Part shown: positions 5,301-46,550 of the stretch, one piece after another
Layout: the number at the start of each line of letters is the position of its first letter
Position numbering within the stretch: the stretch's first letter is position 1
Source of the DNA: Artemia franciscana
Taxonomy: Eukaryota; Arthropoda; Branchiopoda; Anostraca; Artemiidae
Direction of reading: 5' to 3'
DNA length: 64,000 nucleotides
Assembly: GCF_032884065.1 (NCBI RefSeq)
Contig: NW_027062662.1
Location: 1,418,552 to 1,482,551 of the forward strand
Position numbers and translations under genes: made by a program
The notes under the pieces: generated by a model
Told to the model about the DNA's origin: nothing
Database searches by the model: none
The model's input: the letters and a program-made list of their open reading frames with translations, nothing else

Positions 5301-6750
5301 CTCAACAGGTCTGGAATTAAAACATACATCCATAAGTACCATGTATAGATTAAATAAATGGAATTGAATATGAAAAAAAACAAAGCAGGATAAAGCTGAG
5401 GAATCAGCAAAGAAGAGGTTTTTTTGTATTATGACAAGAAATACGGACCGGGGGCAATTTTTTTTTGCTTTTGTTTGTGCCTACGTAATGGTCACTTCCC
5501 AAAGATAAAATTGGAGAAAAAAATAGATTTAAGTTTTTGATTAGAAAATTTTGGGTAAAAGTTGGCAAATCTTTGGTTTGAAAAATCCTTAAGTGATGCA
5601 TAAAGACAACTGGAAATTGGTTCCAGTTCCCATGCAGTGAAATCAAGCTTTAGGTGGAATGTTTTTGATAATGGAAGTTGTGAATGCTATGCCACAACGT
5701 AAGCAAGTTAACACTGTTTGTTCTCACTCACAACAAAATTCCTGATCAATTCAAACATTTTTTAGCTCTAATCTTAAAGAAACTCAAGCATTTTTTTAAA
5801 CCTGGTTGCTAATGCGATCAGTTGCTTTTGAAATTTTCGTAATTTCAAAACCACCATAATTTTTTTTTTTTTTTTTTTTTTTGACATACATGCAATCAGA
5901 AATGGAAAAAATATAATTTTGATTTCTAAGAATGAATTAGAATTAATTTTAATTTATTAATCATTACTTTTAATTAATACAACATGAAATTAAATTTAAG
6001 AACTGATAGTTCTTTCTAGGCCAAAACTTGTAAATCCACTATATACAAAGCTTGAGAGCCCGAATCTAGATCAATCTTCTGGGATAAAGCCTCTGCAGGA
6101 AATGTTTTGGGTCTTCAGTTTGGTGATTTTAATTTTCAAATGGTTTAGAACCAGCAGAGGGAGCCAAAAAACACTATCTGAAATATTCAATGAACTGGGC
6201 AAATTCATAAACATGAACACATGCGCAATTTTTTCCAAACTTAGTTTTTGCAGCCTAATATCCCCAAATCTTCCCCATCGAAAATTGGGTTCTTTGCATC
6301 TCTATCAAAAACTTAACGTTCGCTATTGTGTGAGCGTTGAAACAAAAATGTATAAATCGTTAAAATGCGTTGCGATTTCAGAACTCAATTTTTTTCCGCA
6401 GTAGAAATTTGGGAATATTTCAAACCGGACTACATCCGTCGTAAAAGCGACGTCAAACCCGTCATGAAAAAATCTAAGACTAGTCTAAGACGAAATTCTC
6501 CATGGGGATTTTCCGCGGAAGAAGCTTCCCATTGGAGGGAGGGGGACTTCGGTTAAAAATTTTCCACGGAGAGGGGGAATTCCTACACGATTTGAAAGAC
6601 GATCAGAAATTAAATAAAAGCGCAATAAGAGCCCATCAAAACGAACTAACTGTGTACGCTGGGACACTGAAACAAGAATTAAAATCTATGCAGACTTTTC
6701 GAGGGAGCAAGTGAAAGATACAGAATGGACATGATAGTCTTTTAAGGGAT
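5301..6750. other. Anonymous DNA, including a poly-T run
   Basis: No gene recognised. A ~24-nt poly-T run lies at 5858-5882. The part around 6490-6580 carries TTTTCCnCGG...GAGG motifs resembling the GGAAAATACCCCC-type minisatellite found elsewhere in the window. The 100-codon frame at 6102-6404 resembles no family I know. Confidence 0.4.
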
Positions 6751-26622: not shown

Positions 26623-27300
26623 GTCCCGGTGTCCCGGTCGTCATTTACATCCCCCTGTTTCCCCCGGTGTCCCCGTTGTAGTTGTGTCCCTGTGTCCCGG
26701 TCGTCATTTATATTCCCTGTGTCCCGGGTCCCGGTCGTCATTTGTATCCCGGTGTCCCGGTCTGTATATACATTCGTTTTTTAGTTTTGTTTTTCTCCTT
26801 TATTTTTTTCCTTTTTTTTCTTTTTTAGCTTATTTAGATTTTTAGATTTTTTAGTTTTTTTATTAGTTTTTAGTTTTTTTTTCTTTTTAGTTTTTTTGTC
26901 CCGGTCGTCATTTATATCCCCCTGTTTCCCCCGGTGTCCCCGTTGTAGTTGTGTCCCTGTGTCCCGGTCGTCATTTATATTCCCTGTGTCCCGGTCGTCA
27001 TTTGTATCCCGGTGTACCGGTCTGTATATACATTCGTTTTTTAGTTTTGTTTTTCTCCTTTATTTTTTTCCTTTTTTTTTTCTTTTTTAGTTTATTTAGA
27101 TTTTTAGATTTTTTAGTTTTTTTATTAGTTTTTAGTTTTTTTTTCTTTTTAGTTTTTTTGTAGTTTTTACCTTCTTTTTAGTTTTGTTAAATTTTTTTTT
27201 TACTTGTGTCCTGGTCGTCATTTATACTCCCTGTGTCCCGGTGCTTTGTTGATTGCTAATCGAACATTCCTTTTGTCCTGGTCGCTTTCTCTTTGAGTGT
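26623..27300. repeat. CCCGGTCGTCATTTAT tandem units within the Helitron
   Basis: Repeated GTGTCCCGGTCGTCATTTATAT units with CCCTGTTTCCCCCGG spacers, in two larger near-identical blocks (about 26630-26890 and 26900-27160), each ending in a T-rich TTTTTAG stretch. Pro/Arg/Ser- and Phe-rich translations of these are not genes. Confidence 0.75.
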
Positions 27301-28185
27301 CGTCATTTATTTTTTTCTTTTTTAGTTCTTTTAGTTTTTACCTTTTTTAGTTTTTTTTTAGTTTTTAGTTTTTTTAGTTTTTTACCTTTTTTTAGTTTTT
27401 TTAGTTTTTTTAGTTTTTTAGCTTTTTTATTTTTTTTATTAGTTTTTAGTTTTTTTGTAGTTTTTGCCTTTTTTTTAGTTTTTTTAGTTTTTTAGCTTTT
27501 TTATTAGTTTTTAGTTTTTTTTGTAGTTTTTGCCTTTTTTTAGTTTATTTAGTTTTTTAGCTTTTTTATTTTTTTTATTAGTTTTTAGTTTTTTTTGTAG
27601 TTTTTGCCTTTTTTTAGTTTTTTCAGTTTTGACGTCACCTGATCCAGTTTTTTCAGGTGACGTCACCTGATCCACGATCCACAGATCCACAGACAACTTA
27701 TTTTTATATATATAGATAGTTTTTTTTTTTTACTTATGTCCTGGTCGTCATTTATACTCCCTGTGTCCCGGTGCTTTGTTGATTGCTAATCGAACATTCC
27801 TTTTGTCCTGGTCGCTTTCTCTTTGAGTGTCGTCATTTATTAGTTTTTTCCTTTTTTTTTTTAGTTTTTTATTGGTTTTTACCTTTATTTTAGCTTATTT
27901 TTCAGTTTTTTCCTTTTTTTTAGTTTTTTTTTATTTTTTATTTTTTTTAGTTTTTTACCTTTTTTTAGTTTTTTTAGTTTTTTTAGTTTTTTAGCTTTTT
28001 TACTTTTTTTATTAGTTTTTAGTTTTTTTTGTAGTTTTTGCCTTTTTTTAGTTTTTTCAGTTTTTTTTTTAGTTTTTTATTGGTTTTTACCTTTATAGTT
28101 TTTTTAGTTTTTTAGCTTTTTTATTTTTTTTATTAGTTTTTAGTTTTTTTTGTAGTTTTTGCCTTTTTTTAGTTTTTTCAGTTTT
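27300..28185. repeat. TTTTTAG-type low-complexity arrays with 530-560 bp duplication
   Basis: Arrays of TTTTTTAGTTTTT, TTAGCTTTTTTA and GTAGTTTTTGCC. A larger unit is duplicated: the block beginning with CTGGTCGTCATTTATACTCC at about 27210 recurs at about 27742, and the GACGTCACCTGATCC element of 27630-27670 recurs at 28186-28230. In this way the Helitron 5' region was duplicated in tandem. Confidence 0.7.
27630..27716 (-). other. Internal Helitron 5' terminus
   Basis: Minus strand from 27716: TCTATATATATAAAAATAAG, then GTTGTCTGTGGATC repeats and a GGTGACGTCACC palindrome. It duplicates the outer terminus at 28276 and is likewise preceded by A. Confidence 0.75.
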
Positions 28186-30345: not shown

Positions 30346-31564
30346 GGATTCAATACCTGAATCTCACGAAGTTCAATCGGGAGTCCTGGTTGAACTTCGT
30401 TGTAGTAATGATTCTGGAACTATTTTGAATTTTTAGATCTTAGTTTTAACGGTCGCACTTCACTGTTATTCTTTTTTATTTGGTGTTTTCTTAGGAGAAC
30501 CCATAATTATAGGGTCCAAATAATATTCATTTGATGTTAGAGTAAGTTTCACTGTTTAAAAGAACTGTCTTAGAAACAAAAAATGTGCTAATAGAAGACA
30601 AGCGACAGCAAAAATGAGACCGAGTCAAAAATGAAAATGAAGAACAAAAGAAATGCTAAGATATAAGAAAAACGTCATCCCAATCTTTGACGCTAACGAA
30701 ATGTGGTGCAAAACCCAGTACCCATCTACAAAGATGCCTTAAACAACGCAACTCTTTATTGCAAGTCATTGGAACCCTTCAAAGTTCTATTTGTTCCCTG
30801 TGGAGCTCTCTATTTTCCTTGAGAAGGAGTAGAAAACACATCTCATTTATTTGGAGGTTGATACTTACCACGAGAATAAATATACACAAGCTTACCACTT
30901 GCCGAACATACAAGCTTACCACTTGCCGAATGCCGGGACCCTAGTCGAAATCGGATATTTAGTTGTTTTTTCTTTACTGGCATACTGACATTTCTGGCCA
31001 CTAAAACCGATCATAAAAGTTCACAACTTTAAGGAAGAGTGGTTCCCAGAGTGGTTATATCTAACCTATGGTGACGCCGAGACATGAAGAAGAGGCTCAC
31101 ATTGTCTGTGGTTACAAAATAAGTGACAATGAGAATCAAGATAGGCAAGCCTGTCGCGTAGAAATGACAGGGTCTGGCCTTGAAATTGGCTACATAGTTA
31201 ATTTTCTTCATAAAATAGGCAAATTGACATTTCAGGCCACAAAAACGATCTGAATAGGTCAAATTTTTAAGAAAGAATTCGTATTTTCCCCAGGGTCCCT
31301 GTATCGAGCCAGTGACCATATATATCCTGGTACTCTATATATGTTACCGTGAATGTCTGAAATATTGTTAATGTCAACATTCACTGATGAATTTTCAAAA
31401 TTCTACTTTCTCTGCTTGAATTCAATTAGCTTTACGAGTCAGCCTTTTCAGTCTATTGCAAGCTATGATGGTAAGGGTGAAAGTTATACTATGTTAGATT
31501 ATGTTACTTTAGGTTAGGTCAGGTTAGATTAGGTTAAATTTGGTTCTAAATATCAGAAATGAGT
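30346..31564. other. Anonymous DNA with degenerate TTAGG-like stretch
   Basis: No gene recognised. Contains a short duplication of ACAAGCTTACCACTTGCCGAA (30886-30930) and, at 31497-31540, ACTTTAGGTTAGGTCAGG followed by TTAGATTAGG, resembling the stretch at 11000. Confidence 0.4.
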
Positions 31565-32405
31565 TAAAAACGTTTTTTGTAGTACTACCTGTACCTTTAG
31601 AAACAAATGTGCCACCATATGGCATTACTGCCTCTGAAACTGGAGGCTCAATATGCGTCTAGTTTTTTGATAATTCTAAATCGATTAACTACCTTAGAAT
31701 TTTCTCACAATAGCTTTTTGGCCTTCTTTTGGCCACAACTGTTGTTTTGCACCAAAAAATGGCTGTAAACATCGCTTTGCTATGGGATAGTCTTTTTGGC
31801 AAAAATAGATGTCTGTGTTAACCGTTTATTTTTTAGGACTATAGAAACGAATGCGCTACTGTACGCCATTACTGCCTCTGAAACAACTGACTATCTCAGA
31901 ATTTTCGAACAATAGCTTTTTGGCTTTCTTTTGACTAGAATTGTTGGTTTGCAGCATGAAATGGTTGAGAACATTGCTTTGCTGTAGGAGTCTTTTTGAC
32001 CAAAATGAATGTCTATGTTACTAACTATTTTGTAGGACTACTTGCACCTTTAGAAACCAATGCGCCACCGTACAGCATTACTGCCTATGAAACTGGAGGC
32101 TCAATATACGTGTAGATTTTTGATAAGTCTAAATCAATTGACTATCTCAGATTTTTCACGCAATAGCTTTTTGGCCTTCTTTTGGCCACAATTGTTTTTC
32201 ACCCCGAAATTGCTGAAAATACACTTTTGCTGTGAGACACTCTTTTTGGCTAAAATAAATGCCTATGTTAACCATTCATTTTGTACGACTACCTGCAGCT
32301 TTAGGAACTAATGCGCCACCGCAAGATATTACGGTCTCTGAAACAGGAGGCTCAACATGCGTATAGTTTTTCAAATCAGTTGACCATCTCAGAATTTTCA
32401 AACAT
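31565..32405 (+). repeat. Outer array, left arm (4 units)
   Basis: Unit landmarks: GCGCCACCGTAnnnCATTACTGCC, GAAACTGGAGGCTCAATATGCG, AGCTTTTTGGCCTTCTTTTGG, CTTTGCTATGGGA. Landmark starts are near 31610, 31853, 32062 and 32312; the second unit has lost about 45 bp. Confidence 0.85.
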
Positions 32406-32417
32406 GGCCAATCTATA

Positions 32418-34340
32418 CCAATTTTTTTCTTCGTGAAACTTATTGTATGTTGATTTTTTCTTTATGAAACTTGTTATATGTTTATTTTATCTTCATAAAA
32501 GTTGTTTTATGTTGGATTTTCCTTCGTAAAACTTCTTGCAAATTGATTTTTTTTATTTTGTAAAACGTGTTCTACGTTAACTTTTTCTCTTCATGAAACT
32601 ACTTACATCTTGATTTTTTGTTAATGAAACATTTTGTATGTTGATTATTTCTTCGTGAAACCTGTTGCAGTATTTTTACCTCATGAAACTTATTGTTCTT
32701 TTAGTCTTTCATAATGAATGATTTTTTTCTTTCGTAAAACTTAATTAAACTAGATAATTTCCTTATAAAACAAGTCGCATGTTGGTTTTTTCTTCACGAA
32801 ATTTGTTGCACGCTGATTTTTTTGTTGGTGAAACTTGTTGTATGTTGATTTTTTATTCGTGAAACTTAATGTAACTTGATTTATTTTTCTTCATGGAAAA
32901 TGATGCCTGTTGGGTTTTGGTCGTGAAGCTTGTTGCATGCTCATTCTTCATTCGTGAAACATAATGTATGTCGATTTTTGCTTCTTGAAACTTATTCTAT
33001 GTTGGTTTTTCTTCTCGAAACTTAGTGTAGGTTAATGCTTTTTTGGTGAAACTCGTTGTGTTTTTATTTTATCTTCATGAAAGTTGTTTTATGTTAATTT
33101 TTTCGTGAAACTTGTTGTATATTGATTTTGTTCTTCGTGACATTTGATGTAAGTTAATTTTTCTCTCTTCTTAAAACTAATTGCATGTTGATTTTTTGTT
33201 CATGAAACATATTATATGTTGATCATTTCTTCGTGAAACCAATTGTATGTTAATTTTTCCTCCCGAAACTTCTTATACTTTTAGTTTGTCTTCGTGAAGC
33301 TTGTTGTACGCTGGTTTTTTCTTTCGTGAAACTTATTTATCTTAATATTTTCTTCGTGGAACATGTTACATGTAGGTTTTTTGCTCGTAAAACGTGTTGC
33401 ATGCTGATTTATTGTTCGTGAAACCTAATGTACGTTGATTTTTCTTCGCAAAACTTTTTGTAGGCTGATTTTCCTTCCTGAAACTTGTTGTATGTTAATT
33501 TTATTATTCGGAAAACTTGTTCTAGCTTTAGTTCTTCTTCATTAAACCTGCTGTTTATTGATTTTTTCTTCATGAAACTTGTTACCTGTTGGTTTTTTGA
33601 CTTTGAAACTTGTTGTATCTTGATTTTGTTTTCTTCGTGAAACTTGTTTTGCGATGGTTTTATCTTTATGAGAATTATTCTACGTTAATTTTTCTTTGTG
33701 AAACCTGTTGACTGTTGATTTTCCTTTTCTTCGTGGAACTGGTTGTTTTTGTTAATTATTTCCGCTCGTGAAACCTTTTTGTGTTGATTTTTTCTTTCTT
33801 TTTAAAACGTAATGTGTCTTGATTTTTTTTTCTGTCATGAAAGATGTTACAGGTTCTTTTTGCTCGTGAAACTTCCTGCATGCTGAGTTTTTGCTCGTGA
33901 AGTATATTATATAATGATTATTTTATTCTTGCAACGTCATGTATCTTGATTTTTTCTCAATGAAACTTGTTACATATATATTTTTCTTCCTGAAACATGT
34001 TACATGTTGACTTTTTGTTTGTGAAACATGTTGCGCGTGGATTAATTCTTCAAGAAACTCAATAAATGCCGAATTATGTTTTCGAGAAACATTTTATATT
34101 TTCATTCCTTCTTCGTGAAACTTATGGCATGATGATTTTTCACATCGTAAAACTTCGTACATTGATTTTTCTCCTCGTGAGACCGGTTTTGTTCATGGAA
34201 CTTTTTGTGTGCTGATTTTTTGTTTGTGAGACTTAATTTATCTTAATATTTTTCTACGTGAAACATCTTGCATGTGGATTTTTCTTCGTGAAACTTTTGT
34301 AGGGTATTTTTTTATTCGAAAAAGCTGCTATAAAAGCTGC
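32418..34340 (+). repeat. Inner minisatellite, left arm
   Basis: Degenerate ~33-bp units of TTCGTGAAACTTGTTGTATG followed by TTGATTTTTTC. Length suggests roughly 50-60 units. GTGAAAC is the most conserved core. No unique spacers, so it is not a CRISPR array. Confidence 0.9.
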
Positions 34341-34363
34341 GTGAAACATAAATTATGTTTCAC
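34341..34363. other. Palindrome centre
   Basis: GTGAAACATAA and TTATGTTTCAC separated by one base form a perfect hairpin tip. The inner unit inverts here with essentially no spacer. Confidence 0.95.
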
Positions 34364-35855
34364 GGACGATAAATGAACATGCAACAAGTTTCACGAACAG
34401 AAAAACAATATGCAATATGTTTTACGAAGAAAAATATTAAGATAAATTGAGCTTTACGAAAGAAAAATCAACGTAAAACCAGTTTCACGAAGGTAAACAA
34501 GAAGCACAATAAGTTTCCTGAGGGAAAAATTAACATGAAATAGGTTTCACGAAGAAATATTCAACGTACAACATGTTTCATGAACAAAAAATCAACATGA
34601 ATCTAGTTTAACGAAGAGAAAAAAATCCACGTACACGTTTCACGAAGAAAAAACAACACAAAACAAATTTCATGAAAACAAAATAAAAATACAACAAATT
34701 TCACGAAGAAAAAACTAACATACAATATGTTTCAAGAAGAAAAATCAACATAAAATAAGTTTCACGAAGAAAAACCGACATTTATCATGTTTCACGAATA
34801 AAGAATCGGCATGCTACAAGTTTCACGCCCAAATGCGAACGGGCATCATTTTTCACGAAGAAAAATTAAATCAAGATGTATTTTGATTTAATTTTTAAAT
34901 TAAAAATTGATTTAATTTAACTTGATGTATCAAGTTACACGAAAAAAATTGACGTACAACAAGATTCGCAAAGAAAAACTAAAGGTACAATAATTTTCGC
35001 GAATGAAAAATTAATATTAAATAGGTTTCACGAAGGAATAATCAATATACAATATTTTTCATGAGTAAAAAAATCAAAAAGGCGATTAGTTTCACGAACA
35101 GAAAAAAAAATTAACGTACAACAAGCATCACGAAGGAAAAAAAATCAACATGCAACATGTTTCACGAAGAAAAAATCAACATAAAACAACTTTCATGAAA
35201 ATGAAATAAAAATACAACAAGTTTCACGAAGAACAAATCAACATACAATAAGCTTCAAGAAGAAAAGTCAGCATACAATAAGTTTCACGAAGAAAAAATT
35301 TATCTACATTATATTTCGCGAATAAAGAATCAGCATGCAACAAGTTTCACGACCAAAAACCAAAAGGCATCATCTTTCACAAAGAAGAATGAAAGCTTCA
35401 CAAGAAAACAAAATCAACTGACAATAAGCTCCACGAACAAAAAATCAGCATGCAACAAGTTTCAAGAACCAAAAACCAATACGCAACATGGTTCACGGAG
35501 AAAAATATCAAGTTAAGTTAAGTTTCAGGTAGGAAAAAAATCAATATGCAAGAAGTTTCACACTGAAAGACTAAACGTACAATAAGTCTCAGGAGGAAAA
35601 AATGAACATGTAACAGGCTTCACGAAGAAATAATCAGCGTACAACATGTTTCATGAACAAAAAATCAACTTGGAACTAGTTTCACCAGGAGAAAAAAATT
35701 AACGTAGAATAATTTTCACGAAGAAAAAAAATCAATATGCAAGTAGTTTCATAAAGAAAACGTAAAACGACTTTCATGAAGATAAAATAAAAATAGAGAT
35801 TTCATGAAGAAAAATTAACATACAATAAGTTCCACGAAGAAAAAATCCTTATACA
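34364..35855 (-). repeat. Inner minisatellite, right arm
   Basis: The same ~33-bp unit on the minus strand (plus strand reads GTTTCACGAAGAAAAAATCA then ACATACAACAA). Confidence 0.9.
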
Positions 35856-35857
35856 TT

Positions 35858-38130
35858 GGCCTTGTTTGAGAATTCTGAGATAACCGATTGAACAGAAAAA
35901 CTATATGCACATTGAGCCTCCTGTTTTTTTTAGGCAGTAATGCCGTACGGTGCTGCATTTGATCCTAATGCTGCAGGTAGTCCTACAAAATAAAAACAGT
36001 TAATATAGAAATTTATTTTAGCCAAAACAGAGTGTGCCACAGCAAAATGCTGCTTTCAGCTATTTGGTGGTGCATAACAACAATTGTGGACAAAAGTAGG
36101 CCAAAAAGCTATTGTATGAAAATTCTTAGTTAGTTATTGGATTTGGAATTATCAAAAATCAACACGCATATTGAGTCTCCAGTTTCAGAGGCAGTACTGC
36201 TGCACGGTGGCGCATTGGTTACTATTAGTGCTGTAGGTAGTCCTACAAAATAAACAGTTAACATAGATATTTATTTGAGCCAAAAAAGAGTGTCTCGCAG
36301 AAAAGTGGCGTTTTCAGTCATTTTGCGGTGCATAACAATATTTGTGTTCAAAAGAAAGCCAAAAAGCTATTGTGTAAAAATGCTGAGTTAATTCGTTTGG
36401 AATTATTGAAAATGAATGCGCATATTGAGCCTCCACTTTCAGAGGAAGTAATGCTATACGGTTGCGCATTGGCTTCTAATGGCGCTGTAGGTTGTCTTAC
36501 AAAATATACGGTTAAAATAAACACTCATTTTAGCCAAAACAGACTGTACCACAGCAAAGCGGTGTTTTCAACCATTTCATGGTGTAAAACAACAATTTTA
36601 GCCAAAACAAAGCCAAAATGCTATTGTGTGAAAATTCTGAGACAGTCAATTAATTTAGAATCACCGAAAAACCATACGCATATTGAGCCTCCAGTTTCAG
36701 AGGCTGTAATCCTGTACGATGGCATATTTTTTTCTATTAAAGGTAGTCCTACAAAATAAAAGGTTAACGTAGACCTTTATTTTAGCCAAAAAGACTGTCC
36801 CACAGCAAAACGGCGTCTTCAGCCATTTTGTCGTGTAAAACAACAATTGTGGTAAAAATAATGCCGAAAAGCTATTGTGTGAAAATTCTGAGATAGTTAT
36901 TTGATTTAGAATTATCGAAAAACTATACGCATACTGAGCCTCAAGTTTCAGGGGCAGTAATGCCATACGGTGGCGCATTCATTTCTATAGATACAGGTAG
37001 TTCTACAAAATAATGGTTAACATAGACATTTATTTTAGCCAAAAAGACTGTCCCACAGCAAAGCGGCGTTTTCAGTCATTTTGTAGTGCAAAACGACAAT
37101 TCTAGCCAAAAGAAGGCCAAAAGGCCATTGTATGAAAATTCTTAGATACTTAATAGGTTTAGAATTATCAAAATCCAAACACACATTGAACCTCAAGTTT
37201 TAGGGGCAGTAATGCCGAAATATGGCAGATTTGTTTCTAATGATGCAGGTAGTCCTACAGATTAAACGGTTAGCATAAATATTTATTTTAGCCAAAAATA
37301 CAGTCGCACAACAAAGCGATGGCCTTAGTCGATTTGTGCGGCAAAACAACAGTTGTAGCCAAAAGAAGGCCAAAAAATCATTGTATGAATATTCTGAGAT
37401 AGTTAATTGATTTAGAATTATCGAAAAACTATGCGCATATTTAGCGTCCAGTTTCAGAGGCAGTAATTCCGTACGGTGGCACACTCGTTTCTAAAGGTGC
37501 AGGTAGTCCTACAAAGAACGGTTAAGAATTATCAAAACCATAAATCCATACATATAATGAACCTCTAGTTTTAGAGGCAGTAAGAACGTAAGATGGCACA
37601 TTCGTTTCTAATGGTGCAGGTAGTCCTACAAAATAAACGGTAAGCATAAACATTTATTTTAGCCAAAAAGGCTGTCCCACAGCAAAGTTGCGGTTTCAGT
37701 CGATTTGTGGGGCAAAACAACATTTGCAGCCAAAAGAAGGCCAAAAAACTATTGTGTGAACATTCTGAGAAAGTTAATGGATTTAGAATTATCGAAAAAC
37801 TATATGTGCACTCGTTTCTAAAGGTGTAGGTAGTCGTACAAAAACGTTTAACATAGATATTTGTTTTAGCCAAAAAGACTGTCCCATAGCAAAGTGGCGT
37901 TTTCAGCCATTTTATTGTGCAAAACAATAATTCTAGCCAAAAGAAGGCCAAAAAGCTACTGTGTAAAAATTCTGAGATAGTCAATTGATTTAGAATCATC
38001 AAAAGATTATACGCATATTAAGCTTCCAGTTTCAGAGGCAGTAATACCATACGGTGGCGCATTCGTTTCTAATGGTGCAGGTAGTCCTATAAAATAAAAG
38101 GCTACCATAGACATTTATTTTAACGCTTCA
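35858..38130 (-). repeat. Outer array, right arm (~10 units)
   Basis: Landmark GAGGCAGTAATGCCGTACGG recurs near 35934, 36190, 36443, 36702, 36954, 37205, 37459, 37575 and 38036, with a partial unit near 37800. The regular spacing is 251-259 bp; one unit near 37459 is shortened to 116 bp. Array ends about 38130. Confidence 0.9.
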
Positions 38131-38299
38131 TATGAGTAGATGATTCAGTTGAGCCTTGAAAATATTTTTTACTGTTGTATATAATAGACGTTCAGCTATT
38201 ATGGATAAGGTCCAGTGTTTCTTTGTGTATGTTGGGGGAGGAGTTTGCCTTAAGCGTCAAAAAGTGTGTGTCTAATTCTCAGTAGGTCTTATATGAACG

Positions 38300-38740
38300 T
38301 AGCCAAATTTTCAAGAGTTGCCACGTACAACACTAGTTCAGGGTATATTTAGCGACTTCATGACTGGATAAATAATGTGATTTCACGTAAGTTATAGGTC
38401 ATTACAAACTTCCAACTTGGATCGTGTTGCAGTATCAAGTGATTTGCAAGCCAATACAGTAAAGTTCGTGTTTGATTATTAATTATCTGACCATCATCCC
38501 ATAGCCTGCTCAATCACTTTGCTATCTTTTGGTCATCAAAGTACATCTCTCGGTCCTTCAGCAACTCTACACCGTCATGACTGGTCAAAAATCGATCAAG
38601 CGCTTTTTACTTCGTCGGTAGATTCAATTCTGGATAAAAATAAGCATCCCTTTTTATCACCTTTAGAAGTCACTCAAGTTACCTCAAAAAGAGAATTCGG
38701 ATTTTTCTATAGATATGTACTGATGCTGAAATCTTCCATC
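38300..38740 (+). pseudogene. LINE endonuclease C-terminal relic
   Basis: LDRVAVSSDLQANTVKFVFD near 38420-38480, a stop, then LSDHHPIACSITLLSFG from 38483. SDHHP is the conserved C-terminal motif of APE-type LINE endonucleases. HRHDWSKIDQALFTSSVDSI near 38577-38636 belongs to the EN-RT linker. It starts about 170 bp outside the palindrome. Broken by stops and followed by a minisatellite. Confidence 0.7.
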
Positions 38741-38880
38741 CCCTAGTGGAATTGGTGGCTAGGGGCCAGGCAGAATTGGATACTAGGGTTCCTGTGGAAT
38801 TAAGTGCTAGGGGCCCGGTAGAATTTCTTGCTAGGGCCCCCAGTGGAATTGCTTGCTAGGGTTCCGACCTTTCTTTAATT
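38741..38880 (+). repeat. ~30-bp minisatellite, four units
   Basis: Four units of GTGGAATTGSTKGCTAGGGbCC type at 38755-38872, directly following the LINE relic. Confidence 0.75.
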
Positions 38881-39040
38881 CATAGTTCCTACCCAAGAAT
38901 CTTGGGTAATGCCCGAGAGCGTCTTGGGCCCAAAAGAAACAAAGCGTATTGGGCAGAGATACTTGGTTCCTTTTTTATTATAGCGTCAATGGCCGTCTGT
39001 TTTGTAGCACAAAATCACTCTAAAAGATAAAACTAGTTGT

Positions 39041-39105
39041 AACTACTACTACTACTACTACTTTTCGATTCTGTTGAATCGATTCTGTTGAATCGATTCT
39101 GTTGA
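39041..39105. repeat. (ACT)n plus 14-bp triplication
   Basis: AACTACTACTACTACTACTA, then a 14-bp unit GATTCTGTTGAATC repeated nearly three times (39066-39105). The third copy runs into the LINE RT frame at the FDSVD motif. Confidence 0.85.
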
Positions 39106-40190
39106 CAAAAGAGCGTTAACAAAGGTCTTATCGTTATATGGTATACCAGAAAAATACACTAAAGTGATTTGTGCTATGTACGAGAATAATACTGCTCCGG
39201 TTAAGGCAGGATATGAGGTTAGCAACTGGTTTCATATTAAATCAGGAGTTAAGCAGGGTTGTGTTCTATCCCCATTTATATGGACCATTTTGATGAACTT
39301 CGTCTTAAGGAGCACAGGAAAGGCAATTGGAGACCATGGAATCAAATGGAGAGGAAGAACGCTCCTAGACTGAGATTACGCTGATGATTTAAGCATATTA
39401 GATGAAAGTGTGAGCAAAATGAATGAATTTTTTGAGGTTTTGCGAGTTCAGGGTGCTAAAATAGGCTTGAAAATTAATGTTAAGAAGACTAAGTCACTAA
39501 GGCTAGGAATAAGTGAAGATGAACAGGTGACATTAGGTAACGAAAAGATTGATCAGGGAGGTTAGCTTCAGTTACCTTGGTAGTATTATTAGTAAAGATG
39601 GTGGGAGCAGTGAAGATGTTAAAAGTAGAATAGCTAAGGCTCAGGGTGTTTTTTCACAGTTAAAAAAAAGTTTGGAAGAATAGAAAGATAAGTCTGCAAA
39701 CCAAGATTAGAATATTGGAAGCTACAGTGATGACAGTGGTCAAATATGGCTCTGAAGCATGGGCACTCCGAAAAGCAGATGAAATTTTACTAGATATTTT
39801 CCAGAGAAATTGCCTACGGATTGTTCTGGGTACCCGGCTGACTGACCGTATTTCAAACAGTAGATTGTACGAAAAATGTGGTTAAATCCGCTTTCTAGGG
39901 CTATAATGAAAGAAAGGTTGAGATGGCTAGGCCACGTTCTACGGATGAAGGATGACAGATTACCGAAGATTGTCCTTTTTGGCCAACCATCTGGGGCTAC
40001 ACGGAAAAAAGGTCGTCCTTGTCTGGGTTGGGAGGATGTCATAAATAAAGATTTAAAGGTAATGGGAACTTCCTGGGAGGGTGTAAAGAGGGAGGCTTTA
40101 AATAGATTAGGTTGGAGGAGGAGCGTGCGTAACTGTGTTGGCCTCAGGCGGCTTGGTGCTGCAGTGAGTTATTAGTAGTAGTAGTACTAG
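39062..40190 (+). pseudogene. LINE reverse transcriptase relic (motif A to C terminus)
   Basis: Starts at RT motif A (FDSVDKRALTKVLSLYG). IKSGVKQGCVLSPFIW near 39240 is motif B; DYADDLSILDESVSKMNEF near 39374 is the catalytic YADD box, with an in-frame stop just before it at 39371. SYLGSIISKDGGSSEDVKS (near 39575), KYGSEAWALRKADEILL (near 39745) and, after a frameshift and stop near 39882, ERLRWLGHVLRMKDDRLPK (near 39910) and a GRPCLGWEDVINKDL segment complete the C-terminal part. The last frame ends near 40173 and is followed by a (TAG)n tail. RT copies element RNA into the genome; this copy has at least three disruptions. Confidence 0.9.
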
Positions 40191-40740
40191 TAAGCTTTTT
40201 AACGTTTTGTTTTTTCGTTTATTGTGTCTTAATTGTTTTTTTCCATGTTTTAATAATGTTTGTAAATTTCTTTCTATTGATAATAAAAATTTAAATACGA
40301 TAAAATTTTGTATTTTAGATTTCTTGTTCCAGTATGAAACTTCGATAAGTAATCATTTACGTAATGAAATATCTATCGCCAACGCTATGTAACATCTGCC
40401 ATGTAACTTAACCTGCCTAGGTCATGTTCAACAATTAATAAAGCTGTAATACACAGGAGCATCTAATAGACGGAAAATCATTAGTATTGGGATGTTTGTG
40501 CGCTTTCAGGTGGAAAGAGTCGGAAAAATGGGAACCCTTCAGTCATTCTAGAAGATGAGCAGGGAATTCCTTCGCGCGTTCAATAGGTTATCGTGTAGAG
40601 AGTATCCCTCGAATCAAAATATTATAAATAGCTTGCCAACCAAATGGTTGAGACTCCTGTCTGGTCATTGGGGAAATTTCTAGTCTTATATTCAATTCCT
40701 AAGGCGGACAAAAATCTTTAGATTATAAAGATTCCCTGAA
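40191..40740. other. Anonymous AT-rich DNA
   Basis: No gene recognised. Confidence 0.4.
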
Positions 40741-40920
40741 AAAAAAGTCATAAAAGAAAGTGAAATCTAAAAGAAAGCCTTGAAAGAAAATGAAATCTCA
40801 AAGAAAAAAAGCTTTGAAAGAAACAATTAAATCCAGAAGAAAAAACCCATTGAAAGAAAACAAAACGCCTTGAAAGAAAATGATGTCCTTAATAAAAATG
40901 AAATGCTGAAGGAACAATCT
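40741..40920. repeat. A-rich minisatellite (TTGAAAGAAAATGAAATC units)
   Basis: Five to six degenerate units of CYTTGAAAGAAAATGAAATC followed by a short A-rich spacer, about 25-30 bp each. Confidence 0.7.
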
Positions 40921-41135
40921 TTTAGAGCATCTTGTAACTTCCCACGTGTGCAACGTCATTACGTGACGCCCCACGTGTGCGCTGCCATTAAGTAACATCT
41001 CACATGTGCACCACCATTACGTAACATACATGTGTGCACCGTCATTACGTAACATCCCACGTGTGCCCTGTAATTGCGTAAAATCCCAATTGTACACCGT
41101 TAATATATAACACCCATGTGTGCCCCCCTCAGTTT
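40921..41135. repeat. ~30-bp array of CACGTG and TTACGTAA boxes
   Basis: About six units of CCCACGTGTGCnCCGnCATTACGTAACAT type at 28-32 bp spacing. Intact CACGTG occurs in at least three units and TTACGTAA or ATTACGTRA in several; later units decay. These match palindromic bHLH and bZIP recognition cores, but a tandem minisatellite explains them without regulation. Confidence 0.8.
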
Positions 41136-41209
41136 TCAACCGGGGATTCCACGCTTGACTAGCGGACTGTAATAAGTCGTATTAGGTAACAAGCACCTGC
41201 GTCTCATAG

Positions 41210-41560
41210 AAAACATTCTATATTACGCAACAATCAAAGTTAAATAAACTCTATTGCTTAATTAATACCTGCTTCTCTAAGAAAACATTCTCTATTGCGT
41301 AACGGTCAAAAGGAAACCATCCCTATTACGCGACAACCAAAGAAATCATCATTTGGCCGGCCCCTGAAGGTTTTTTCAGGCCCTTGAGGTTTTTTTTAAA
41401 CAACCAAAGAAAATAACACTCTATTATGTAACATTTGCATAAGTAAACAAACCCTATTGCATAACTCAACAAACCTATTACGTAAGAACCAAAGAAACTC
41501 TGAAGCAAAGAAGCCCTGGCCCTAGTTGGTTTTTTAAACAATCAAAGAAAAAAAACTCCC
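41210..41560. repeat. Irregular CTATTACGTAAC / CCAAAGAAA repeat
   Basis: CTATTRCGYAACnnnCAAAG motifs recur near 41230, 41292, 41330, 41412, 41450 and 41475 at irregular spacing, with two partial copies of a GGCCCTGAAGGTTTTTT segment at 41355-41400. Confidence 0.6.
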
Positions 41561-41639
41561 AATTACATAACATGCATCTGCATGCATCATTACTAACCTA
41601 ATAACCTCTATGCATAAAGCGTTTAATTGAAACTCCTCC

Positions 41640-43400: not shown

Positions 43401-43780
43401 TGTACCTTTGCTCAATCTCAATTTACGAGGGTTATAAAAATCTGTAAATCTATTTCTTAGACATAAGAAAACAAAACCTTGATATGCCTTAAAATTCTAC
43501 TGAATTAACAGAAATTGTATTTTCAAAGACTAAGGCCAATAAAAAAGGGATTAAAACTAAAAAAAAAGGTTAAATATTTTTTGTCAGAAATCAGATAGGT
43601 GACCTGTCATGAATAGAGACCAAAATTCAGAATACGGATCTTTCCTGTATGCAATCATCTAAGCTCTAGAAAACAATAAAAGGGTATACATAGTAACTTA
43701 GCAATAACTTAGCGCGGTACACTTTCGTCCTTGACTTCATTCCTGAAAGTCTCATTCACCTAAATCAACTGCTCTGCAAG

Positions 43781-44640
43781 ATAGCGAGAAGCCTTTAAAC
43801 TAGGATTTTGCCCAGCATTTTAACAATGAACACAATCTGCTGCACCAAATCACCAAGGGTGAAGCAAGGATTTCTTTCGATTGTTATAAAATGGGAAACA
43901 AAAAAAAAGTTTTTAAAAAATCTGGGTTTTAAACTCAACTGCTTTGAAAGAAAACGAAAAGCCTTTAAACTAGGATTTTGCCCAGCATTTTAACAATGAA
44001 CACAATCTGCTGCACCAAATCACCAAGGGTGAAGCAAGGATTTCTTTCGATTGTTATAAAATGGGAAACAAAAAAAAAGTTTTTAAAAAATCTGGGTTTT
44101 AAACTCAACTGCTTTGAAAGAAAACGAAAAGCCTTTAAACTAGGATTTTAACCAACTTGTTAATAATCAACACAATTTGTGGCACTAAATCACCAAGAGG
44201 GGGGGGGGGAAAGGATTTCTTTCGATTGTTATGGGAAACACAAAAAAAAATTAAACCTGGGTTTTGAACTCAACTGCTATGCAAGATAGAGAGAAGCCTT
44301 TAAACTTTGATTTTATCCAACTTGTTAATAATCCTCACGATCTGTGGCACCAAACAACGAAAGGGGGGGGGGGAAATCAATGATTTCTTTCAATTGTTAT
44401 AAAATGGGAAACTCATAAAACGTTTTTGAAAAACATGGGTTTTTGAACTCAACTGCTTCGCAAGATAGCGAGAAACATTTAAACTAGGATTTAACCATCT
44501 TATTAATAATCAACACGATCTGTGGCACCAAATCACCAAGGGGGGGGGGAGCAAGGATTTATTTCGATTGTTATAAAATGGGGAACACAAAAAAATTTTA
44601 AAAAAACCTGGGGAGGGATATTTCTTTTAAATGAAGACAC
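43781..44640. repeat. 170-bp satellite, five units, two identical
   Basis: Unit landmark GCCTTTAAAC occurs at 43791, 43961, 44131 and 44295, with ACATTTAAAC at 44474. The first two units (43791-43960 and 43961-44130) are identical over 170 bp; later units have G-runs and indels (periods 164 and 179 bp). Unit ends in CTCAACTGCTTTGAAAG. Confidence 0.92.
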
Positions 44641-45789: not shown

Positions 45790-46550
45790 TTACGTGATGT
45801 TTTTTACGTATGTGGCAAACAGTTTAAAGAGCCAGAACAAGCTACAACTGATAAGTCTACTAAAAAGTCACAAAAAGGAATTGACATTTTTATACGTAAT
45901 GTTGTAGGGTATGTGAAGAACAATCCAAAGAGCCAGAACGACTGATAAGTCTATTAAAAAGTCACTAAAAGGAATTGACATTTTTATACGTGATGCTGTA
46001 GGGTATGTGACGAACAATCCAAAGAGCCAGAACGAGCTACAACTGATAAGTCTATTAAAAAGTCACTAAAAAGAATTGACATTTTTATACGTGATATTGT
46101 AGGGTATGTGATGAACAATCCAAAGAGCCAGAACGAGCTACAACTGATAAGTCTATTAAAAAGTCACTAAAAGAAATTGACATTTTTATACGTGATGTTG
46201 TAGGGTATGTGACGAACAATCAAAGAGCCAGAAAGACCTACAACTGATAAGTCTATTAGAAAGTCACTAAAAAGAAATTGACATTTTATACGTGATGTTG
46301 TAGGGTATGTGACGAACAACCCAAAGAGCCAGAAAGAGCTACAACTGATAAGTCTATTAAAAAGTCACTAAAAGGAATTGACATTTTTATACGTGTTGTA
46401 GGGTATGTGACGAACAATCCAAAGAGCCAGAACGAGCTACAACTGATAAGTCTATTAAAAAGTCACTAAAAAGGAATTGAAGTTTTTACACGTGATGTTG
46501 TAGGGTATGTGGCCAACAGTCCAAAGAGCCAGAACAAGCTAAAAGCATAT
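45790..46550 (+). repeat. ~100-bp tandem array, 7-8 units
   Basis: TTGACATTTTTATACGTGAT starts recur at 45883, 45977, 46078, 46179, 46280, 46380 and 46479 (periods 94, 101, 101, 101, 100, 99). Each unit continues GTAGGGTATGTGACGAACAA, then AAAGAGCCAGAACGAGCTAC, then AAGTCTATTAAAAAGTCACT. Because ~101 is not a multiple of three, the reading frame changes each unit and no long protein results. The first unit is part of an 87-codon frame. Confidence 0.92.

Follow-up and report, generated by a model that had tools for sequence, protein, structure and literature searches.

The 64,000-nucleotide stretch of the Artemia franciscana genome analyzed here (G000:C76:1418552-1482551, on contig NW_027062662.1; hereafter the window) carries a large palindrome of tandem arrays, which is probably the decayed copy, truncated on its left, of a foldback-shaped and non-autonomous element of the Polinton/Maverick type, the Polintons being virus-like giant transposons. 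Searches of the 1.27-Gb genome (6468 contigs) show that it belongs to a family that is a dispersed mobile element, with a shared AGTAGT terminus, 6-bp target duplications, and arms built of layered arrays.

The palindrome occupies positions 31565-38121 and, by Tandem Repeats Finder (TRF) and self-comparison, has the order outer, inner, inner, outer, with an outer unit of ∼254 bp and an inner unit of ∼31 bp. The left outer array (31565-32405, forward strand) is truncated on its outer side and is followed by the left inner array (about 32421-34340, forward strand). The right inner array (34345-35845) and the right outer array (35861-38121) are inverted and lie on the reverse strand. Both the sequence and the inverted match place the axis near 34343 (34341-34344), without a unique middle. 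The best inverted match pairs 31575-33912 with 36756-34348 at 73.1% identity over 2464 columns; its score of 1366 bits compares with a best of 45.5 bits in 20 random Markov-2 sequences, and the palindrome is far beyond chance. TRF, self-comparison, and the random control thus confirm the two-layer palindrome of satellites proposed in a preliminary description of this stretch. Its outer unit of ∼253 bp also holds, while the inner unit, given there as ∼33 bp, measures 31 bp. The arms differ in unit number as it had stated, with 4 outer-unit matches on the left (2 partial) and 10 on the right (3 partial).

The same description took these unequal numbers as a sign that each array expanded and contracted after inversion, a proposal that the units themselves do not support. 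Across 88 full outer units from 11 loci, identity is 77.5% within an arm, 77.4% between opposite arms, and 76.8% between loci. Homogenization of the arrays after inversion was rejected on these values, and the near-equal identities fit copies that arose in a single burst and then decayed independently.

The opening 501 bases of the left outer array, used as the query, gave 163 matches (40 of 764 candidates scored), and a hand count among those listed puts the outer unit at no fewer than 36 places besides the window. Ten of these places, a selection from the listed matches rather than a random sample, were each retrieved with 20 kb of sequence, and facing outer arrays are present in five of them (C7, C3, C17, C6, and C21a). 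In C17, and in C6 with one of the two short, inner arrays flank the middle on either side; the outer-inner-inner-outer order is therefore present beyond the window, a point that the preliminary description had named as a check. C3 has a single inner array, no inner array was found in the 20-kb stretches of C7 and C21a, and C2 shows the reversed order, inner-outer-outer-inner. The two arrays are also only part of an arm, which was first described as two-tiered and proves to be multilayered: modules A and B and further short arrays recur at other loci, at some of these on both arms. The absence of a unique middle stands for the window copy and fails for C7, C12, and C17, which possess middles. 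The window palindrome is thus neither unique, as its order recurs, nor complete, as its left arm is truncated.

The structure of nine elements was measured as the share of their length in inverted self-match. Palindromic copies give 66% (C3), 62% (C17), 52% (C7), 80% (L065), and 65% (the window copy, taken as 31565-41594), and the mirror symmetry of C3 continues as far as sharply defined ends at 5853 and 17410, both of which have AATTAG beside them. The asymmetric copies C12, C21b, and L061 have inverted ends of about 210-400 bp and an inverted self-match of 14-24%, and L060 combines 363-bp inverted ends with internal inverted arrays (51%). Long inverted arms of tandem repeats around little or no unique middle, which define the foldback class structurally, are thus present, and no coding frames were recognized in the palindromic loci read except nested retrotransposon sequence.

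The ends identify the family as mobile. The consensus of 20 fetched ends, of which 18 are independent because L036/L037 and L038/L039 share flanks, starts AGTAGTGA, i.e., AGTAGT.... Its conserved 26-mer, at up to 3 mismatches, has 143 forward and 160 reverse matches and hence marks at least 303 ends genome-wide; the reversed 26-mer, used as a control, has none in either direction (0 + 0). In nine bracketed copies, the 6-bp flank duplications agree at 45 of 54 positions, whereas flanks compared across loci agree at a mean of 1.75 of 6, and 0 of 20,000 permutations reach the observed agreement. The duplication is 6/6 in C3 and C9, 5/6 in C12, C21b, C17b, C8 (L061), and C17mini (L065), and 4/6 in C82 (L060) and C10. 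The outer array is present in three of the nine (C3, C12, and C21b); L060, L061, and L065 are other family members whose interiors were read, and C9, C10, and C17b are known from their ends only. L065 (G000:C17:9021190-9022205) is a 0.9-kb miniature member with ∼340-bp inverted ends. Precise outer boundaries with target duplications, which had been put forward as a check, are accordingly present in the family.

Vertebrate Mavericks have (AGT)2//(ACT)2 or (AG)3//(CT)3 ends, 6-bp duplications, and inverted repeats that span 46-1,447 bp (PMC8097293). The consensus of the 20 family ends carries the (AGT)2 form of this motif, and the duplications of the nine bracketed copies have the same length. 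The genome also contains 44 matches to PolB (PF03175), and eight stretches were read beside five of them at four loci. Three of the five flanks on the terminus side (L049, L050, and L052) carry AGTAGT ends; the L053 flank is altered at this position, and the L056 flank aligns with the others over its first 307 bases only. In L055, a Polinton of this genome, PolB has as neighbors an rve integrase (6.6e-10) and a relative of the capsid-like protein P0007 (40% over 67 residues, 5e-9). The initial assignment to a foldback element survives in that the family is foldback-shaped and mobile; a classical foldback lineage does not, given 6-bp duplications and ends that indicate the Polinton type.

A capsid-like gene fragment, a relative of which is the one beside integrase and PolB in L055, lies within one bracketed copy, L061, which is 4.0 kb long and has inverted ends that measure about 280 bp. 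Its frame at 701-1084 matches six database proteins (P0001-P0006), and P0003 leads to a protein family of 19 proteins of up to 273 residues. This frame may be of the Polinton minor-capsid (penton) type, an assignment that Pfam, PHROGs, and solved structures do not support. A genome search with P0003, in which 150 of 1816 candidates were scored, gave 197 matches. When 62 family end places (30 plus 40 entries less 8 repeats) were set against the best 150 of these 197 matches, a capsid-like match was found within 15 kb inward of 3 ends (C103, C21, and C12) and outward of 0, with 0.11 expected. Two of the 150 listed matches, both weak, have a PolB match less than 10 kb away, and no capsid-like match was found in the window. 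C20 has a terminus, module B, module A, and an outer array, followed about 9 kb further along the contig, beyond a retrotransposon, by frames that we read as capsid-like, presumably pX-like, and presumably MCP-like; the family modules and these frames may belong to two neighboring elements. At C103, an inverted duplication of capsid-like genes (L063, G000:C103:1393400-1397900; 418-1462 versus 4419-3422, 75% over 1058 columns) sits 5-10 kb inward of a family end. The 1816 first-look candidates, many with internal stop codons, compare with 44 PolB matches and are a large population of decayed virus-like copies.

In the window, the element is not bounded by 31565-38130, as had been proposed, and its right arm extends past the outer array through further modules to about 41594. 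Module A (38122-38888), which is common to other loci and occurs on both arms in C3 and C7, is separated from module B (40191-40600), which recurs in other loci, by a retrotransposon-like insert, apparently of the long interspersed nuclear element type (38889-40190); in C3, A and B are close together. Most of this insert (39093-40184) recurs elsewhere, and its frame 39092-39370 resembles reverse transcriptase, as judged by eye. Short arrays with units of 30-36 and 29 bp (40739-41126, TRF) come next, and then, on the reverse strand, subterminal units with TTACGTAATAGGG-like motifs (41180-41570), recognized from six such motifs between 41290 and 41558, with no more than 2 mismatches each, and from a partial terminus-profile match at 41210-41180 (E 0.0021). 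The right end (41571-41594, reverse strand), which reads inward as AGTAATGA, is probably at about 41594. It was placed partly by eye, and the placement is a judgment because the full terminus profile does not report this end. It reads AGTAAT, and individual family ends vary from AGTAGT. A candidate duplication, AACCTA, occupies 41595-41600, without a left partner in the window. Left of 31565, no counterpart of the terminus or of either module was found within the window, and the left arm therefore breaks off at this point, by truncation or rearrangement. Short repeats of the GTTAGATTAG type, telomere-like by eye, adjoin the truncated arm at 31493-31545.

Other satellites are present in the window. 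A separate complex block at 26630-28185 consists of TTTTTTAGT-type arrays and a 262-bp unit. Parts of it match C21a 965-2191 and C17 3991-4425 at about 70-86%, so this block is also dispersed; in C17, the matching sequence sits between the inner arrays. Further tandem arrays lie at 43761-44612 (∼170-bp unit) and 45808-46541 (∼101-bp unit), and the latter is about 90% homogeneous and therefore much younger than the palindrome.

Several observations weigh against a Polinton/Maverick assignment. The enzymes that would move the family, a protein-primed PolB and an rve integrase, were not found between its ends, and it is for this reason that we call the assignment probable and do not claim full Polinton/Maverick membership. 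PolB lies within 20 kb inward of none of the 62 family ends. The family terminus profile has no match at E ≤ 10 in the PolB flanks, and beyond AGTAGT the likeness between family and PolB ends is weak (P 0.0065-0.0115, 2000 shuffles each). For the capsid-like protein, the L061 frame finds no support in Pfam, its relatives find none in Pfam or PHROGs (best E 0.049), and solved structures return unrelated proteins only (best E 0.072). Among viral contigs, 41 pattern matches include no relative of the capsid-like family, and the exact terminus pattern does not occur there. The predicted structure of the capsid-like protein is unusable (mean predicted local distance difference test score 31). The registers of several decayed ends were set by eye, for which the permutation only partly allows. 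In the window copy itself, the full terminus profile gives no match at the right end (about 41594), and the missing left end leaves no testable target duplication. The absence of PolB and integrase is nevertheless what is expected for a non-autonomous derivative.

For a Polinton-type element of this kind, we would envisage the following course. A Polinton-type integrase and protein-primed polymerase, supplied in trans, would have made and inserted the copies. One end of the linear element would have been copied into an inverted duplicate, either by snap-back of the displaced strand in protein-primed replication or by template switching, and the resulting palindromes would then have been inserted and have decayed without homogenization of their arrays. 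That the palindrome stems from snap-back replication is our inference, and for this step alone there is a strong competitor, with a chance only a little short of even: chromosomal template switching or ectopic recombination could have lengthened a short inverted repeat without any replication error. Extension of this kind has been described for Galileo, in a report that cites inverted-repeat expansion in Polintons as already known (PMC3573991). The lack of mirror-order unit correspondence in the window, C3, or C17 agrees with chromosomal extension and counts against the snap-back course. In C2, five outer-unit pairs do correspond in mirror order (0.89-0.95). These pairs and the L063 inverted duplication indicate that inverted duplications occurred with different axes, and the differing axes (inner array, C2, and L063) fit recurrent replication error at least as well as chromosomal extension.

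A more far-reaching proposal, which we offer tentatively and hold to be possible rather than probable, is that the palindromes are fossil defective genomes, i.e., snap-back by-products of Polinton-type protein-primed replication that were inserted by the integrase and then frozen. The recurrence of inverted duplications at different axes, which lie in the inner array in the window, near module B in C2, and in C103 next to the capsid-like genes, would then be a trace left by the replication error, and the layered satellites would be amplified end sequences of the element. A foldback family whose ends and duplications are of the Polinton type would mean that satellites and giant palindromes have a virus-like source as well, and a large dispersed set of inverted duplications would be at hand for the direct study of errors of protein-primed replication in eukaryotes.

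A cut-and-paste foldback element, as in Galileo or Tetris, would explain the whole family differently: its long inverted repeats would have grown by tandem duplication and inverted recruitment of neighboring sequence, and the Polinton-like ends and capsid-like pieces would be coincidental or nested. The anatomy is near that of Tetris, which has flanking, ∼220-bp tandem, and inner domains, no coding capacity, and neighboring repeats that for the most part resemble each other no more closely than remote ones do (PMC4079207); extension of inverted repeats is known from Galileo (PMC3573991), and no PolB was found near the family ends. We nonetheless regard this explanation as unlikely, given that the duplications are 6 bp, that the (AGT)2 end motif agrees with Mavericks, and that a capsid-like fragment lies within the bracketed L061. 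Foldback transposons are mostly assigned to Mutator, with exceptions such as Galileo; a Mutator-type foldback was rejected here on the 8-10-bp duplications of Tetris (PMC4079207), as was Galileo, of the P superfamily, on its 7-bp duplications (PMC3573991). Ginger2, which has 6-bp AT-rich targets (RTATAY), was rejected on its TGTNR ends, as against AGTAGT in the family (PMC2836005). An immobile satellite block inverted in place or an assembly artifact, which the missing left end and testable duplication of the window copy might suggest, is very improbable: the shared precise ends, duplications, and dispersal (at least 36 other places among the matches listed, with a recurrent order) reject a simple immobile array, and against an artifact stand the recurrence of the arrangement elsewhere and an arm identity of only about 73%, which a misassembled fold-back would not show.

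Among known foldback systems, the sea-urchin TU elements form a modular family whose arms have outer and inner domains, the outer tandemly repeated, and the present family resembles them in this division of the arm. Tetris of Drosophila virilis is likewise non-autonomous and layered; its authors place it with Mutator, and the available part of their report does not present the inner domain as a second tandem array (PMC4079207). Galileo, also from Drosophila, has likewise long and variable inverted repeats that contain tandem repeats, and differs in its P-type transposase (PMC3573991). Adeno-associated virus snapback genomes, which are defective viral genomes of inverted-duplicate shape, belong to another virus group with a replication mode other than the Polinton type and serve as an analogy for the proposed origin of the palindrome only (PMC8235507). 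Among the open-licence papers listed, no foldback-shaped Polinton family appeared by title or abstract start, which is weak evidence of absence, and the exact phrases non-autonomous Polinton and palindromic Polinton did not occur. From Polintons/Mavericks, the family differs in that no polymerase or integrase was found between its ends, in its layered satellite arrays, and in palindromes that far exceed the reported span of Maverick inverted repeats (PMC8097293). It shares with them the (AGT)2-type ends, the 6-bp duplications, inverted ends that in its asymmetric copies measure a few hundred bases, and a putative capsid-like gene fragment in one bracketed copy.

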